The notes beneath the pieces are model-generated. The model did not search any database and was not told where the DNA came from. It saw only the letters and a list, made by a program, of their open reading frames with translations. A program made the translations under genes and the position numbers. A stretch of 64,000 nt of DNA from Elusimicrobiota bacterium (GTDB lineage Bacteria > Elusimicrobiota > Elusimicrobia > UBA1565 > UBA9628): positions 62,001-126,000 of the forward strand of contig JAPLKL010000007.1 in NCBI GenBank assembly GCA_026388095.1. Direction: 5' to 3'. Below are positions 23,559 through 31,429 of the stretch, one piece after another; within the stretch, counting starts at the first letter, position 1, and the number at the start of each line of letters is the position of its first letter.

Positions 23559-23882
23559 TCAGGCGCACTTGTTGGGCCAGACGCAGGTCTGGAAATCGCC
23601 CGCCAACTCCGCTGCCTTGCACTTGTTGGGAGTCCCGCAGGGCTGGAAGGTGGCGACGGCTTCCGGCTGGCTGGCGCAGGAGTTGGGCCAGACGCAGGGC
23701 TCGACCTGTTCGATCTGCGCGGTCTGCTGCGAGGCGCAGGTGTTGGGCCAGACGCAGGGCTGGACTTGGGCGACGACCTGCGAGGCGCAGGTGTTGGGCC
23801 ACACGCACGGCTGGACGGAAGCCATGGGGGCGGAAATTGGGTTGACGGGGCTCAGGGCCAGCATCAGTATCAGTTCGGTCAT
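23559..23882 (-). CDS. small secreted protein with five C-x2-P-N-x-C repeats
   Basis: The 107-residue product starts with a short hydrophobic leader (about 1-21). It then carries five Cys pairs: C26/C32, C43/C49, C63/C69, C82/C88 and C100/C106. Four units read C-V-W-P-N-x-C and one reads C-G-T-P-N-K-C, joined by Gln/Ala-rich linkers of 10-13 residues. GGAG is seven bases before ATG 23882, which fixes this start; the frame continues upstream to 23990 without a ribosome binding site. I do not recognise the family. Possible roles are a metal-binding or disulphide-rich envelope protein, or a precursor peptide, but no modifying enzyme gene adjoins it. The repeats are visible at DNA level too, implying recent unit duplication. 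Confidence 0.75.
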   Translation of the reverse strand: MTELILMLALSPVNPISAPMASVQPCVWPNTCASQVVAQVQPCVWPNTCASQQTAQIEQVEPCVWPNSCASQPEAVATFQPCGTPNKCKAAELAGDFQTCVWPNKCA

Positions 23883-23950
23883 TTGAGTTCTCCTGTCTCT
23901 GCGGCACAGACATTGTACCGCGGCCGGGTCCCGGCTCCCTATGAGTCCGG

Positions 23951-23967
23951 TCAAGGCCGGGCCTTGA
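23951..23967. promoter_or_regulatory. 8-bp inverted repeat between divergent genes
   Basis: TCAAGGCC and GGCCTTGA flank a single G. It lies in the 209-base region dividing the Cys-repeat gene from the aminotransferase gene. A second inverted repeat, GGGGAA/TTCCCC, is at 24011-24027. Both could be operator sites. Confidence 0.4.
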
Positions 23968-24043
23968 TTATCATCATTGAGCCCGGTCATTGACCGCGGT
24001 CAACTCCTCCGGGGAATCGTCTTCCCCAGGCGCAAAAGGGATG

Positions 24044-25412: not shown

Positions 25413-26426
25413 CTAGCTCGTGATGCCCCGGAACTCCTCCTTGAAGTCCCGGTTCATGAGGGTCTTGAGCGCCTGGGGCAAGGGGCGGCCGTGGTGCAGG
25501 ACCTCATAGACCTGCTCGGTGATCGGCATCTCCACCCCCTTCTGAAGCGCCAAGGCGTGCGCCGCGGCCGCGGTGTGGAACCCCTCCGCGACCGAGCGGT
25601 GCTGGGCCACGTACGCCTTCGGGTCCGCCCCCTGCGCCACGCTCTGGCCCAGCGCCCGGTTGCGGGAGAGCTCGCCCGTGCACGTCAAGACCAGGTCTCC
25701 CACCCCGGATAGCCCCAGGAAGGTCAGCGGCTGCGCGCCCAGGGCGATGCCCAACCGGGTCATCTCGGCCAGGCCCCGCGTGATGAGCGCCGCGCGGGCG
25801 TTGGTCCCCAGGCTCAGCCCGTCGCAGGCGCCGGCCGCTATGGCGATGACGTTCTTGAGCGCCCCACCGACCTGCACGCCCACCACGTCGTCGCTGGCGT
25901 AGACGCGGAAGGCGGGCGCGTGCAGGGCCTCCTGCACCGCGAGCGCGGCGGCCGCGTCCCGCGACGCCGCGACCACGTTGGTCGGCAGGCCGAGGGCCAC
26001 CTCGCGCGCGAAGCTCGGCCCCGAGAGGAAGGCCAGGCGCCGCGCGCCGACCTCGGGCAGAGTCTCGCCGAGCACGGTCGAGAGCAGCTCCAGCGAGGAC
26101 TCCTCGATGCCCTTGGCGGCTACGACGACGACCGCGGCGGCCCCGATGTGAGCCGCGGCCTGCCGGGAGAGCTCGCGCAGATGCTGGGCGGGCGCTGCGA
26201 AGAGCACCAGGTCCGCGCCGCGCACGGCCGCGCCCAGGTCGCCGCAGGCGCGCACGGAGTCCGGGAGCTTCACGCCGGGCAGGAAGACGGCGTTCTCATG
26301 GCGCGCGGCGATGGAGTCCGCGACTTCGGGCTCGAACGCCCAGAGCCGCACCGAGTGGCCCAGGCGCGCCGCGTGGCTGGCCAGGGCCGTGCCCCAGGCG
26401 CCCGCCCCGACGACCGCTGCCTTCAA
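25413..26426 (-). CDS. gpsA: NAD(P)-dependent glycerol-3-phosphate dehydrogenase
   Basis: GpsA reduces dihydroxyacetone phosphate to sn-glycerol-3-phosphate for phospholipid synthesis. The 337-residue product has the Rossmann motif V-G-A-G-A-W-G-T-A-L (about 6-15) and K-G-I-E near 110. It also has L-S-G-P-S-F-A-R-E-V and G-G-A-L-K-N-V-I-A-I-A-A-G with the catalytic Lys. The TTG start overlaps the TGA of the upstream Crp/Fnr gene (TTGA), so translation is coupled. The frame continues far upstream, but that part is the shadow of the regulator gene. Length and motifs match the family. Confidence 0.94.
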   Translation of the reverse strand: MKAAVVGAGAWGTALASHAARLGHSVRLWAFEPEVADSIAARHENAVFLPGVKLPDSVRACGDLGAAVRGADLVLFAAPAQHLRELSRQAAAHIGAAAVVVVAAKGIEESSLELLSTVLGETLPEVGARRLAFLSGPSFAREVALGLPTNVVAASRDAAAALAVQEALHAPAFRVYASDDVVGVQVGGALKNVIAIAAGACDGLSLGTNARAALITRGLAEMTRLGIALGAQPLTFLGLSGVGDLVLTCTGELSRNRALGQSVAQGADPKAYVAQHRSVAEGFHTAAAAHALALQKGVEMPITEQVYEVLHHGRPLPQALKTLMNRDFKEEFRGITS

Positions 26427-27127
26427 CTGGTCAGGCCCGCCAGGACGCGCAGCTGACCTTCGTTGAGCAGGATCAGGTCCTTTTCTTTCTTCCGCACGAG
26501 CTCCCGCTGCTCGAAGTCCTTGAGCAGGCGCACCGTGGTCTCGATGGAGAGCCCCGCCATCTCGGCGAGGTCGCGGCGCTTCAAGCCCGCCACCACCGGA
26601 TGCGTCTTGCCGTCCTTCTTCATGCGGCAGAGCACGTCCGCCAGCCGGCTGCGCGCCGGCTTGAAGGCCACGTCGCGCGTCTTGTTGTCGGCCATGCTCA
26701 CGTCGTGCGCCAGGGCCTTGAGCAGGGCCAAAGAGGCGTTGGGGTACTTCGTGAGGAAGCCCGTGAAGGACAGGGCGTCGACCAAGGAGACCACGGAGGT
26801 CTCCATGGCCTCGCCGCTGGCATCGTAGGAGCCGCCATGCAGGAGGGTGATGTGGCCGAGCAAGTCGCCCGGATGCTCGATGCGCGTGATGAGCTGCTGG
26901 CCGCTGCGGCTGGACTTGTAGACCTTGACCTTGCCCGTGCAGACCACGAAGACGCCCATGGGCACGGAGCCCTCGTGGAAGATGACCTCCCCGGCCTTGA
27001 AGGGATTGGCCACGCGCATCTCGCGCCAAGCCTTCTTGGATTCCTTGGTGCCGAGGAGCTCGTAGAGGCAGTTCTTGCGGAACTGGCACCAGTCGCAGTT
27101 CGGCGCTTCTCTTTGGGAAAATGCCAT
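26423..27127 (-). CDS. Crp/Fnr-family regulator with FNR-like N-terminal cysteines
   Basis: The 234-residue product has a cyclic nucleotide-binding-type sensor domain (about 25-145) and a C-terminal winged helix, with R-R-D-L-A-E-M-A-G-L-S-I-E-T-T-V-R-L-L as recognition region. Near its start it carries C11-x2-C14-x5-C20, the same spacing as the three N-terminal [4Fe-4S] ligands of E. coli FNR (C20, C23, C29). The fourth FNR ligand position is occupied by Ser. C63 and C167 are the only other cysteines. Oxygen or redox sensing is therefore plausible, not certain. ATG 27127 is preferred over an upstream TTG. It is co-transcribed with gpsA. Confidence 0.88.
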   Translation of the reverse strand: MAFSQREAPNCDWCQFRKNCLYELLGTKESKKAWREMRVANPFKAGEVIFHEGSVPMGVFVVCTGKVKVYKSSRSGQQLITRIEHPGDLLGHITLLHGGSYDASGEAMETSVVSLVDALSFTGFLTKYPNASLALLKALAHDVSMADNKTRDVAFKPARSRLADVLCRMKKDGKTHPVVAGLKRRDLAEMAGLSIETTVRLLKDFEQRELVRKKEKDLILLNEGQLRVLAGLTS

Positions 27128-27203
27128 TAAAGTGAGCTTTTCATGGAATGAATAGAGATATGATGATACCAATTTTGATTGGGCATATCCAGGGAGGCCG
27201 CTT

Positions 27204-28217
27204 TTACGGCTGGGGCGGGATGATGTCTAAAGTCTCGCCGCCGTCCGGATCTGGTGTTATGCTGAAAATACCTGCATAATCCTTTGCCGTGTCAGCTCCG
27301 GCCACTTCCTGGCATGCGGAACCGGACATCTTGGAGGCATTCCTTGCGGTCAAAAGGGACACTTGCGACCAGGCCGCGCCTCGGACCGTGGTTCTGGTAG
27401 GCTGTACGTCCATGCCTTCGTTGCCGCGCCTGGCGCCATCCACGATGCGGAACTGGTCGATGGAGGCTACCCGCTTGAACGAGCGGCTCTGGCCTGCGGC
27501 GAAGCCGTCCTGCTGGAACACGGCGGTGAAGTGCCGGCCGGCCCCGCCGGCGGTCCTGATATCGAGGCGCATGGTCCCGTCGTCCCTGACCCGCAGGGCC
27601 ATGACCAATGACTCGCCGGGATAGAAGTAGTAGGGGTCGTCGGCCGGCGGGTTGTGCCACTGATTGCCGTGGTTCAAGGTGGTGCGCCAGTAGGGTCGGA
27701 AGGCGAAATTGGGCCGGATCCGCCTGCCGTTGAGCTCCGCGACGATGAAGCGGTGCTTGGGGTCGCGGCCGTCCGAGCCCGAAGGCAGGTCCGTGAAGGT
27801 CGGGCGGCCCTGCTCGTCGTAGACCCGGTCCCAGGTCAAGCCCGCGTCCACCTCCTTGGCCGAAGTGTGGGCCCCCACGTAGACGCTGGGCCGGTCCAGC
27901 GGGCCTTCCCAATAAGCCGGCTGGCCAGGGGCGGGTGTGAAGGATCGGGTCGGGTCGAATCCGACGCTCGGCAGGACGACCTGGGCCCGGATGCCGGTGT
28001 AGCGCGCCGATCCGGCGCTCTCCACCTTGCGGAAATAGGCGCCCCGGACATGGGCGTCCACCCGCATAGGAGCGGCGCAGACGATGCCCGCCGGCGCGGC
28101 GGGCGCGATCCGGGAGCGCAACTGCTGGAAGCCATCGTGGATCCGGCGCAGGGCGTCGGGTTCGGCCGCGGCGGGACCGGCGAACAGGAAGGGCAGGACC
28201 CAGAGAGCTCGGCGCAT
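27204..28217 (-). CDS. secreted protein of unknown function
   Basis: The 337-residue product starts with a clear signal peptide (cut near A-A-A-E) and has no other membrane segment. The mature part is rich in beta-type sequence with many aromatic residues, including a Y-W-R-T-T-L-N-H-G-N-Q-W-H block and P-Y-Y-F-Y-P-G-E-S. Two cysteines are spaced widely (about 47 and 304). I do not recognise a family. It follows the TPR gene on the same strand by 19 bases, so the two may form an operon and act together in the periplasm. GGGGGAG precedes the ATG. Confidence 0.7.
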   Translation of the reverse strand: MRRALWVLPFLFAGPAAAEPDALRRIHDGFQQLRSRIAPAAPAGIVCAAPMRVDAHVRGAYFRKVESAGSARYTGIRAQVVLPSVGFDPTRSFTPAPGQPAYWEGPLDRPSVYVGAHTSAKEVDAGLTWDRVYDEQGRPTFTDLPSGSDGRDPKHRFIVAELNGRRIRPNFAFRPYWRTTLNHGNQWHNPPADDPYYFYPGESLVMALRVRDDGTMRLDIRTAGGAGRHFTAVFQQDGFAAGQSRSFKRVASIDQFRIVDGARRGNEGMDVQPTRTTVRGAAWSQVSLLTARNASKMSGSACQEVAGADTAKDYAGIFSITPDPDGGETLDIIPPQP

Positions 28218-28236: not shown

Positions 28237-29475
28237 TTAACGTCGGGCCAGCAAGTCTTCGGTGCGGCCCACCAAGCCTGCGAAGCCGGCCAAGTCGCGG
28301 ACGGGCTCGAACTCCGAGTCGCTCTTGGCCAGGATCAGATATTTGCGCAGTTCGGCCCGCGAAGGCGCGGAGTCGAAGGTCCCGGCCAGGGCGCGCAGCG
28401 CCTCGTTGAACCGGCCGGAGACCGAGTAGGCCAGAGCCAACTGGTAATTGGCGGCGGCGTTGTTGGGCATGGCCTGCAAAGACCGCTGCAGGGGGAGGAC
28501 CGCATCTTCGCACAAGCCGAGGCGGTTGTAGGCGGCGCCCATGCGCTCGTAGAGGATGGAGCGCTGCACCGGGCTCAAGGCTTGCGCCTTGCCGTCGAGA
28601 CGGGCCGCGGTGTCGTAGGCGTTGATGGCGGTCCGGTACTGCCGGAACTTGAAGTTGTCGTCGCCGGCGGCCAGCGCGTCCATGACCGCGGGATCGGGCA
28701 GGGGTGCTGCGGCCAGCTCCCGGGCCAAAGCCGGGCCCTGGTCCTTGACCGCGTCGCGCAGCTCCTCGTCGCGGGAAGCCGGCGCGGCTTGGGCTATGAC
28801 GGGCTGGGAAGCGGCCGGATCGCCCGCCACGGCCGCGACATCCGGATAGGCGAGCATGGACGAGTATCGGGGGTTGCCGCGCAAGGTCTTGAGGATGAGC
28901 TCCTCCTGTCCGATCTGCCGCGCCCGCTCCAGGCTCGCGCCGAGGCTCTCCGCGGCCTTGGCCGGCTGGCCCAGGCGGCTGTAGGCGCGCGCCAGATTGA
29001 GAGGGATCATGGGGTTCTTCGGGGCCGCGGCCATGGCCGAGCGGTAGGCGGCGGCGGCCCGGTCGAAGTCCTGGACGGTCTCGTAGGACCAAGCCAGGCT
29101 GCGATAGAAGCGGGACGGGTCCGCGATCACCTTGAGGCCGGGGTCGGCGGCCATGGCCTGGGAGTAGGCGCTGACCGCCTCCTGGGCGTCCTGTTTGTCA
29201 GCGGCCGAGGGGACGGCGCTGCGGGAACCCCTTTGGGCGTGCGCGTAGCCCAGGAGGAAGAGGGCGCGGCTCTCAGGGCTGAGGCTGGCGGCCTTGGAGA
29301 ACTTCGTGATGGCCGCCGTGAAATCCTGCCGCTCCACGTCGGCCAGGCCCTTCTTGAGCAAGGCCTGGATCGGCGAGCGGTCCGCCGTATTCCCGGATCG
29401 ATCGGCCGCGGTCGCCGGAGGGGTCGCGAGGAGGGCGGCGAGCAGGCCGGTCATCGTCAGCAGCGTCGTTTTCAT
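28237..29475 (-). CDS. secreted TPR-repeat protein
   Basis: The 412-residue product has a signal peptide ending near A-T-A-A and several tetratricopeptide repeats. Examples are A-I-T-K-F-S-K-A-A-S-L-S-P, A-A-A-A-Y-R-S-A-M-A-A-A-P-K-N-P and L-Q-R-S-L-Q-A-M-P-N-N-A-A-A-N-Y. They fall in two clusters (about 40-200 and 265-385) separated by an Ala/Pro-rich linker. TPRs bind partner proteins, so a periplasmic scaffold is likely. GGAGGGA is seven bases before ATG 29475, which favours that start over ATG 29481. It is the first gene of a two-gene unit with the 337-residue secreted protein. Confidence 0.8.
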   Translation of the reverse strand: MKTTLLTMTGLLAALLATPPATAADRSGNTADRSPIQALLKKGLADVERQDFTAAITKFSKAASLSPESRALFLLGYAHAQRGSRSAVPSAADKQDAQEAVSAYSQAMAADPGLKVIADPSRFYRSLAWSYETVQDFDRAAAAYRSAMAAAPKNPMIPLNLARAYSRLGQPAKAAESLGASLERARQIGQEELILKTLRGNPRYSSMLAYPDVAAVAGDPAASQPVIAQAAPASRDEELRDAVKDQGPALARELAAAPLPDPAVMDALAAGDDNFKFRQYRTAINAYDTAARLDGKAQALSPVQRSILYERMGAAYNRLGLCEDAVLPLQRSLQAMPNNAAANYQLALAYSVSGRFNEALRALAGTFDSAPSRAELRKYLILAKSDSEFEPVRDLAGFAGLVGRTEDLLARR

Positions 29476-29596
29476 GGCCATTCCCTCCGCTGATGTTAGT
29501 ATGGGTCCTTATAGGGCCATTTGGCGAGGAGCGCTGGGCCTGGAGCTCCTTGGGCCTAAGGACCTATGCCCGGAGCCGCTCCAAAAAGCCGCAAAC

Positions 29597-29615: not shown

Positions 29616-29693
29616 GGTGGGTGTAGCTCAGCTGGTTAGAGCGCTTGGCTGTGAACCAAGAGGCCGGGGGTTCAAGTCCCCTCACTCACCCCA
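29616..29693 (+). tRNA. tRNA-His (GTG anticodon)
   Basis: The cloverleaf folds completely. The acceptor stem is GTGGGTG with CACTCAC (one G-T pair). T8 and A9 are present. The D stem is GCTC/GAGC, the anticodon stem CTTGG/CCAAG carries loop CTGTGAA, and the T stem is GGGGG/CCCCT with loop TTCAAGT. The extra G at position -1 (29616) pairs with C73, the hallmark of histidine tRNA, and CCA is encoded. The stop codon of the convergent serine recombinase gene lies inside the tRNA 3' half, so this gene marks the left end of the accessory region. Confidence 0.97.
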
Positions 29694-31256
29694 TTTTGCA
29701 TTTCGAGCATAGAGAACCTCGTAATCCCCTTGAGCCCTCAGGGTTTTGCGAGGTTCTAACCGTTTATGGAGGGCCTGGACCTCGGGGGCGAACTCCTGGA
29801 AGAGGGCCAGCGGCTTTTGCATTTGAATCTCAAGCGTTCTGTCGGTCAGGACGAGGTTCAAACCGAGGCAGGAGAGGATTTCCCGCTTGACGGCCAGGTC
29901 GCCCGTCTCAAAGCGTCTACGGGCTGTTTCCGCAAAGGATAAAAGCCCCTCGGCTTGATTGATCCACGTCTCGGCCCGGTGGTTGGCGTCTGAGAGGATT
30001 TCCTCGGACCGCTTCTTTTCCTCGGCCAGTTTTTCCCGCCGCGCTCGAAAGTCCTCCGGCGAGATTTCGGCATCGAGGCGCATTTCAAAGAGGGCTTCAA
30101 TCTTTCTCTGGCAGGCATCGGCCCGCGAACGGTGATTCTTCAGAATGTCGTCCCTGTCGTTGCGTTCCTGGCCCTGCTCCTCTTTAAGGTATTTGATGGC
30201 CCACTGGTGGAACTCCGGCGGGATGGTGATCTTGTCCAGAGTCTCCTTGATTTGAAGTTCCAATTCGCTGTCTCGGATGGGCTTTTGGGAGCAGGTCGGG
30301 ACGATCCGTTTCGAGCAGCGGTAGTAGGTGTAATGATGGGTGTTGCCGTTTTTCTGATGCTTGGTTTTTTCTTCCGCCGTGATGGACGCTCCGCATTCTC
30401 CGCAGCGGATCAGGCGGGTGAAAGCGAAAATGTGCCGGGTCAGAGCCTCCGGCCTTCTTCCGTCCAGAAGCCCCTGCACTATGTCGAACTGGGTCTTTGA
30501 GATCATGGGTTCATGCTTGCCCGGATATAGGGTCCCGTTCCAAGAAAATTGTCCGTAGTAAAACGGATTGCGGAAAAGGGTGTAGAACTTGCTTCGCGTC
30601 AGCGGCTTGCCTTTGGGCGTTCTTAAACCAAAATCGTCGGCGCGGGAGTAGAGCGATTCGGCGGAGCATCGCTGTTCTATCAAGGTCAGCCAGAGGCGCT
30701 TGACCAACTCGAACCTTTCGGGGTCATTGTGGATCGGGAGCAGGTCCGGCAGGTTGTGCTTGTTGGACAGGTAGCCGATGGGCGGCTTGTGCGGGACCCA
30801 GCCCTGCTCGATCTTGGCCCGTTGCCCCCTCTTCGTGTTGACGCTCAGGTCCAGGATGAATTGATTCGCCATGCCGAACTCTAAATTCATCATCAGCACG
30901 TTGTCGGTGGGGTAGTAGCTCCTCTGGAAAGTCTGGATGTGTTTTATGAGCGATTGTTGGAGCATCCAGCTAATGGTCCCACCGTCCACGGGGTTCCGGG
31001 CCAGGCGGTCGAGTTTCCAACAGATGATCCCTTGGGCCTTGTCCACATGAATGGCCTCAATCATCTTGTTGAAGATCGGACGCCCTGGCGCTTTGGCGGA
31101 CTTTTCCTCGGTCAAGACGGCCTCGATGGTGAGATTCGCTTGCGTGGCCAGACGCTTCAACTCATCGATCTGCGAGGAAATAGAGGCGATCTGCCGATCT
31201 TCGTTCTCGGAAGATTTACGCGCATAGAGGAAATATTTGATGCCGGAGGGTTTCAT
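29682..31256 (-). CDS. large serine recombinase / integrase
   Basis: The 524-residue product has an N-terminal resolvase domain with Y-A-R-K-S (catalytic S15). It includes I-C-W-K-L-D-R-L-A-R-N-P, followed by the 'recombinase' domain (about 165-290) with Y-G-Q-F-S-W-N-G. A zinc ribbon has R-C-G-E-C-G plus a later C-S-K-R...C-S-Q, and a long coiled coil spans about 370-450. This is the architecture of phage-type serine integrases, which join attP and attB without high homology. The ATG shares one base with the stop of the MerR-like gene (TAATG). The C-terminal codons run into the tRNA-His 3' end, so the integration junction formed part of the reading frame. Confidence 0.93.
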   Translation of the reverse strand: MKPSGIKYFLYARKSSENEDRQIASISSQIDELKRLATQANLTIEAVLTEEKSAKAPGRPIFNKMIEAIHVDKAQGIICWKLDRLARNPVDGGTISWMLQQSLIKHIQTFQRSYYPTDNVLMMNLEFGMANQFILDLSVNTKRGQRAKIEQGWVPHKPPIGYLSNKHNLPDLLPIHNDPERFELVKRLWLTLIEQRCSAESLYSRADDFGLRTPKGKPLTRSKFYTLFRNPFYYGQFSWNGTLYPGKHEPMISKTQFDIVQGLLDGRRPEALTRHIFAFTRLIRCGECGASITAEEKTKHQKNGNTHHYTYYRCSKRIVPTCSQKPIRDSELELQIKETLDKITIPPEFHQWAIKYLKEEQGQERNDRDDILKNHRSRADACQRKIEALFEMRLDAEISPEDFRARREKLAEEKKRSEEILSDANHRAETWINQAEGLLSFAETARRRFETGDLAVKREILSCLGLNLVLTDRTLEIQMQKPLALFQEFAPEVQALHKRLEPRKTLRAQGDYEVLYARNAKWGE

Positions 31257-31429
31257 TACTTTCGGATCTTCTTGAGAATCTTTTCCAGCTCCGCTTGTTT
31301 GTACATCCGGTAGTTGTTCATGGGATGCCGGTAGGGAGAGAGCTTCCCTTGCTTGTCCCAATTCCGCAAGGTTTGAGGCGTCACGCTCATGAACCGTGCG
31401 GCTTCAAGAATCTTGAGGTAGCCTTTCAT
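31256..31429 (-). CDS. small MerR-like helix-turn-helix protein
   Basis: The 57-residue product is a single MerR/excisionase-type winged helix with L-E-A-A-R-F-M-S-V-T-P-Q-T-L-R-N-W-D-K-Q-G-K-L. It is coupled to the serine recombinase gene by TAATG. In IS607-type elements a MerR domain is fused to the serine recombinase; here it is separate. It may act as a recombination directionality factor or as the operon repressor, which is inferred from position. AAGG lies seven bases before ATG 31429. A consensus promoter sits directly upstream. Confidence 0.8.
   Translation of the reverse strand: MKGYLKILEAARFMSVTPQTLRNWDKQGKLSPYRHPMNNYRMYKQAELEKILKKIRK

Follow-up and report, generated by a model that had tools for sequence, protein, structure and literature searches.

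In Escherichia coli, FNR activates class II promoters from position -41.5 (PMC7349173), where its box reads TTGATNNNNATCAA (PMC4214427, PMC7349173), and the ligands of its cluster are Cys20, Cys23 and Cys29 (PMC4214427). Multi-copy precursors of secreted peptides exist, yeast alpha-factor being the general type; phage accessory genes known as morons act on the host surface; and somatostatin, urotensin and vasopressin are animal hormones that carry a disulphide loop. The gene family described here shares features with each of these and differs from each of them.

We analyzed a 64,000-nucleotide stretch of an Elusimicrobiota genome (hereafter, the window). A gene on its minus strand encodes a small protein with a hydrophobic N-terminus, MTELILMLALS, followed by five seven-residue Cys loops (C-x5-C), four of which read C-V-W-P-N-x-C and the remaining one CGTPNKC. 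Its features are as follows.

23559..23882, minus strand: coding sequence of the five-loop protein, 107 residues, assigned on the basis of its relatives and of purifying selection
23823..23882, minus strand: hydrophobic leader MTELILMLALSPVNPISAPM, without positive charge; family pattern M-x-[NEQDS]-[LIM]-[IL]; pN/pS 0.105
23787..23807, minus strand: loop 1, CVWPNTC
23736..23756, minus strand: loop 2, CVWPNTC
23676..23696, minus strand: loop 3, CVWPNSC
23619..23639, minus strand: loop 4, the variant CGTPNKC
23565..23585, minus strand: loop 5, CVWPNKC, the C-terminal unit, with GDFQT ahead of the loop
23890..23894, minus strand: ribosome binding site AGGAG, 7 nt ahead of the ATG

The DNA repeats within the gene are spaced by multiples of three (111/60/51 and 54/117/51), and when the protein was shuffled 100,000 times no shuffle held more than one C-x2-P-N-x-C unit, against five in the real chain. 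The gene is present as a single copy in its own genome. AlphaFold returned a mean pLDDT of 40 and no confident fold, and the chain may be intrinsically disordered; because the model offered no usable fold, no fold search was made.

Scanning one genome per species returned seven relatives (34-63% identity), all in Elusimicrobia metagenome-assembled genomes, and a profile built from these seven was then run over 340 Elusimicrobiota genomes. This profile search found the family in 38 of the 340 genomes, which represent 16 of 100 genera; a single genome had at most four matches, and one genus carried tandem triplets. The 57 full-length genes recovered encode two (n=16), three (n=24), four (n=10) or five loops (n=7), and their consensus is A-Q-[FV]-x-[PT]-C-V-W-P-[NH]-x-C. 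Across 179 loops, V is kept in 76%, W in 85% and N in 70% (otherwise H, R or K); F or V stands three residues ahead of the loop, and A-Q occupies positions -5/-4 in about 70%. Both cysteines and the proline were part of the search pattern and are 100% conserved by construction; the free loop positions, required loosely or not at all, and the selection test were not fixed by it. Among 28 close pairs, pN/pS was lowest in the loops (0.087) and the leader (0.105), rose to 0.22 in the A-Q-F flank and reached 0.48 in the linkers, and the low values in loops and leader show that selection keeps these two parts. Gaps between loops range from 6 to 36 residues, and the loops of one chain resemble one another above chance at positions 1, 4 and 5. 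In members outside the window's taxonomic family (L042, L043, L045, L055, L064, L066, L067), a second unit, [ND]D[FY]xIC-x2-P-[NRK]-[KR]-C, often occurs among the QFxPC units, which suggests two loop classes in one chain.

No match to the loop family was found in Pfam, NCBIfam or PDB (best E 0.016 or worse, below the cut-offs), nor any homologue among plasmids and INPHARED phages; a search of the open-access literature returned nothing on the family and no occurrence of CVWPN. Beyond Elusimicrobiota the search covered only close relatives, plasmids, phages and viral contigs, and distant single-loop members could have been missed; the genomes are mostly metagenome-assembled, and absences may be assembly gaps. 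We conclude that the loop gene is real and that its family, whose small proteins are apparently secreted, has not been described before. The earlier note had described a small protein of five C-x2-P-N-x-C units, four of them reading C-V-W-P-N-x-C, with a good ribosome binding site, DNA repeats that keep the frame and no known family; all of these points held, and the frame, for which no strand had been given, lies on the minus strand. As a check of a real family it had asked for homologues that vary in repeat number, keep the cysteines and have a signal peptide; proteins with the first two features and a hydrophobic leader were found in the 38 Elusimicrobiota genomes. The outcome that it said would refute the family, a lack of homologues or a frame broken in relatives, was not borne out, silent changes being dominant among close orthologues.

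The region ahead of the loop gene contains the following promoter elements.

23912..23917, minus strand: -10 element TACAAT
23941..23954, minus strand: class II Crp/Fnr-type box TTGACCGGACTCAT, 23 nt ahead of the -10 element
23977..23990, minus strand: second box ATGACCGGGCTCAA, with one mismatch to TTGA-N6-TCAA and one base in common with the box at 23990..24003
23990..24003, minus strand: upstream box TTGACCGCGGTCAA, an exact palindrome

A TTGA-N6-TCAA site is present upstream of all 57 genes (50 exact, 7 with one mismatch); in shuffled upstream regions, exact sites occurred in 0.1% and sites with one mismatch in 3%. The common layout consists of one or two often adjoining boxes, about 9 nt, a box usually ending in TCAT (TTGA-N6-TCAT), 22-23 nt and the -10 element. 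A box with at most one mismatch, followed after 22-23 nt by TANNNT, was found in 54 of the 57 members and in none of the shuffled controls. With the last box at about -41.5, this is the layout of a class II promoter activated by a Crp/Fnr protein; the layout itself is shown, while the start is inferred from the -10 element. The loop-gene boxes resemble those of E. coli FNR promoters in reading TTGA-N6-TCAA/T and in the position of the last box, about 41.5 nt ahead of the inferred start, but their half-sites are mostly TTGAC rather than TTGAT and two or three boxes are usual. A further difference is that many members are probably leaderless, since in 23 of the 57 the -10 element ends only 4-9 nt, almost always 6, ahead of the ATG.

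The double-box pattern matched in 29 of the 44 genomes of the window's taxonomic family, and the reversed pattern in none. Most matches lie ahead of loop-family genes. Others precede different genes whose products have signal-like starts; chance, or a site common to a divergent gene, accounts for some. Other families of the order retain the promoter in a different gene neighbourhood.

Several other genes were seen behind this promoter. Proteins of about 180-270 residues with signal-like starts (G000:C78 near 44250, L092, 5661-6314, minus strand; and L131, G228:C13) have the same promoter, which makes the regulon wider than the loop family, and the two share a C-terminal stretch (ILMDLSYS.../VLMDLNFS...). 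Genomes without the loop gene carry an exported protein with a repeated H-I-L-P (VHILPNGPVHILPW...) behind the same multi-box promoter (L124 in G219; L125, 3780, plus strand, in G220; L126, 3619, plus strand, in G221). The same leaderless promoter precedes a Pro-rich protein with a signal-like start (L093, G000:C56, 761-1387, plus strand; L132, G230:C31), whose gene lies just upstream of a pyruvate:ferredoxin oxidoreductase-like gene. Short loop-family members with one CQWPRQC loop and a different C-x5-C (CPAGRVC) were found solely through the promoter pattern (L123, 3617, plus strand, in G217; L130, G216:C23, minus strand). The pattern can thus reveal small exported genes that profile searches miss.

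A candidate for the protein acting at these boxes is encoded near the loop gene, in a conserved group.

26423..27172, minus strand: regulator of the Crp/Fnr family that has C-x2-C-x5-C plus a fourth invariant Cys; in most cases its orthologues lie directly ahead of the loop gene
27204..28217, minus strand: protein with a signal-like start and no Pfam match; adjoins the regulator in eight loci
28237..29481, minus strand: TPR protein with a signal-like start; adjoins the regulator in 24 loci

At 27 loci the loop gene has a Crp/Fnr-family gene in its vicinity; 24 of these have the regulator gene immediately upstream (about 90-220 nt), usually behind a TPR protein. In the window the order is kept on the minus strand (28237-29481, 27204-28217, 26423-27172), and a gpsA-like gene and a divergent aminotransferase gene separate the regulator from the loop gene. 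The regulator matches PF00027 and PF13545 above cut-off (a cNMP-binding fold and a Crp helix-turn-helix), and its PDB matches are Crp/Fnr chains. Its cysteines C11, C14, C20 and C63 are invariant in 27 of 27 orthologues. The first three form a C-x2-C-x5-C spaced like Cys20/23/29 of FNR, and the regulator also has an ETxxR recognition motif; in contrast to FNR, however, the fourth Cys lies in the early beta-roll and not at the Cys122 position, and the motif reads ETxVR instead of ETxSR. We call the regulator FNR-like because of this displaced Cys. That C63 stands in for Cys122 is possible, but is a guess, and a role as a [4Fe-4S] oxygen sensor is putative, resting on sequence alone.

The regulator is present in 39 of the 44 genomes of the window's taxonomic family. 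Ten genomes that lack the loop gene have upp as the next gene after the regulator, and the sequence between holds neither a loop gene nor boxes; since both are missing from these loci, gene and promoter come and go together. The recurrent neighbours are the regulator, the TPR protein, upp, thymidine and purine nucleoside phosphorylases and transketolase. No modifying enzyme recurs among them, and a RiPP cluster was rejected for this reason; nor did the neighbours include a dedicated protease, transporter or receptor linked to the loop gene. Elsewhere in the window, at 29617-31361, tRNA-His (29617-29693) directly adjoins a large serine-recombinase-like gene (29682-31361, minus strand), which suggests an integrated element.

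These data bear on whether the loop ORF could be an open frame arisen by chance or an antisense-coding artefact. In favour of this reading, other open frames overlap the ORF in the GC-rich window; against it stand the 57 relatives, purifying selection, the conserved promoter and the syntenic presence and absence of the gene. We rejected it, and regard it as all but excluded.

The leaders of the cellular proteins conserve a hydrophobic core, by inspection, and lack a positive n-region, with A-x-A in some only. For the claim of the earlier note that the protein is secreted one caution applies, as the usual positive Sec charge is missing; export of the cellular form is likely, but it is inferred and remains unproven. 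The window's genome encodes two DsbA-like proteins, and VKOR, sought as a factor for disulphide formation, was not found. Closure of the Cys loop by a disulphide outside the cytoplasm, and with it the disulphide state, is inferred.

Among viral contigs, the profile scan gave one relative and the loop pattern three more contigs, representing three phages in all. Each encodes a canonical signal peptide and exactly one loop (QFQPCVWPNICAQ, QFKPCVWPNTCAQ, NVEPCVWPNHCITK). The gene of phage 1 (IMGVR_UViG_3300009285_003361; MKILTLILTVTILAILLFGIPARAQFQPCVWPNICAQ) lies just ahead of the terminase genes, and that of phage 3 (IMGVR_UViG_3300001798_000009; MKNTAIVVLLLLAWAALRPAPAAAQFKPCVWPNTCAQ) is divergent from genes resembling terminase subunits; that of phage 2 (MKLLSKTMGVISLIVIVVGLVLCLNARANVEPCVWPNHCITK) lies on a 210 kb contig (IMGVR_UViG_3300027807_000001), with an identical stretch in IMGVR_UViG_3300009697_000217. 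The phage leaders MKILTL...ARA-Q and MKNTAI...AAA-Q meet Sec criteria by inspection (positive n-region, hydrophobic core, A-x-A), and the gene ends ARA-QFQPCVWPNICAQ and AAA-QFKPCVWPNTCAQ match the AQFxPCVWPNxC units found inside the cellular chains. Phages 1 and 3 have only 53 bp in common, over the peptide, and their large terminases are unmatched in the stretches compared. Both carry the composite leaderless promoter (box, 22 or 23 nt, TA-type -10 element, 6 nt, ATG), the only one of its kind in either piece, with 0.017 expected; phage 2 is without the box.

The large terminase-like gene of phage 3, identified without a phage profile search, matches terminase-like frames in Elusimicrobiota. 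Gene sharing did not show the host of the phages: relatives of this terminase in the phylum reach only 26-38%, and the phage 1 transposase has none. No regulator gene was found on phage 1. The promoter and peptide of phages 1 and 3 point to an Elusimicrobiota host, which is not established. Separately, the large terminase of phage 1 (L134, 4868-7549, plus strand) is interrupted by an intein-like stretch, with terminase profile matches on both sides. Further viral matches were set aside: those to the double-box pattern are chance, the extra loop-pattern matches L181-L184 are chance or antisense, and the CVWPN-pattern matches L168, L169, L170 and L173 have no signal peptide and look like chance. 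Like morons, the phage loop gene is small, has its own promoter, occurs in unrelated phages and has structural or packaging genes as neighbours. To our knowledge no moron has a loop-family sequence, and the phage copy differs from morons in being one isolated module of a repeat protein found in cells, with a host-type Crp/Fnr promoter in two phages.

Our first choice among the explanations, although we consider it slightly more apt to fail than to stand, is a redox-controlled extracellular cyclic-peptide module, made as a polyprotein by cells and as a single peptide by phages. The loop gene would encode an exported, intrinsically disordered polyprotein whose active modules, the seven-residue Cys loops C-V-W-P-N-x-C, would probably be closed by disulphides and act outside the cytoplasm. 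A Crp/Fnr-family regulator, putatively the FNR-like neighbour, would activate the gene through the class II promoter and the extra upstream boxes, and the protein would be produced on demand upon a change in oxygen or redox state. The cellular chain, cut near A-Q, would serve as multi-copy precursor for a cyclic peptide that is secreted (QFxPCVWPNxC...), and the phages would supply the finished single peptide directly. The identity of the binding regulator, cutting between units and any receptor or target are inferred.

We favour the multi-copy precursor because unrelated phages encode a signal peptide with one unit, two of them from a host-type promoter; selection on loops and leader but not on linkers, together with the lack of a stable fold, is as expected of beads on a string. 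As in yeast alpha-factor-type precursors, a leader is followed by several near-identical short units with variable linkers and copy number, and in the loop family a single unit also occurs alone behind a phage signal peptide. The loop family differs in its Cys-loop units and in having no known cutting enzyme or receptor, and cutting has not been shown. The likeness to somatostatin, urotensin and vasopressin, short peptides whose Cys-closed ring includes an aromatic residue, is functional only; these are animal peptides without sequence relationship to the loops. Against a precursor, only about 70% of the units carry A-Q ahead of the loop and the junctions are not all alike; proteolytic release is inferred, with the single unit of the phages as its only, indirect support. 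Against the explanation as a whole stand the lack of a linked protease, transporter or receptor, the uncharged cellular leader, the failure to find VKOR, the missing box in phage 2 and the phage hosts not being established.

The main rival, which remains possible, is a multivalent surface binder: the chain would stay uncut and each loop would dock to a partner at the surface of the cell itself or of its neighbours (envelope, pilus or matrix), the single phage loop being a competitor that occupies the partner, for example blocking superinfection. The variable count of near-identical loops on flexible linkers, their resemblance within a chain above chance at positions 1, 4 and 5, and the single unit carried by phages are consistent with it. 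However, no partner gene is linked, and the phage product, a unit with A-x-A just ahead of Q, is explained no better than by a precursor.

Two further readings rest on the cysteines and appear unlikely. In the first, an exported metal-binding protein would capture soft metals (Cu(I), Zn or Hg) under redox control, which is supported by Cys pairs at fixed spacing and a probably redox-linked expression. Against it, V-W-P-N between the cysteines is kept almost as strictly as the cysteines themselves, a lone phage loop offers two thiol ligands only, and the linked genes include neither a transporter nor a regulator for metals. In the second, the product would be an exported thiol-disulphide buffer or cross-linked matrix protein made upon redox change; repeated Cys pairs, a flexible chain, a Crp/Fnr-type promoter and the sharing of this promoter with other exported proteins speak for it, but it would have no need for V-W-P-N and a single-loop phage version would add little. 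The earlier note had allowed disulphide staples, metal binding or a peptide precursor; these are still hypotheses, among which the single-unit phage genes favour the peptide. The Crp/Fnr promoter, the linked regulator and the phage copies had escaped it.

Returning to the cyclic-peptide module, the loop is suggested to do something worth carrying, since phages without other detectable common DNA in the stretches read have kept it, two with a host-type promoter. At about 13 residues and one Cys loop it is a compact testable unit, with its promoter defined and a candidate for its regulator at hand, in a widespread phylum that is mostly known from metagenomes and whose cell-surface biology is little studied. 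A bolder reading, possible at present, is that the peptide is a redox-switched extracellular signal or ligand of Elusimicrobiota which unrelated phages have captured, two of them with a host-type promoter, so that infected cells would emit the signal or block its receptor. If true, this would be a host-phage peptide dialogue outside all described systems.
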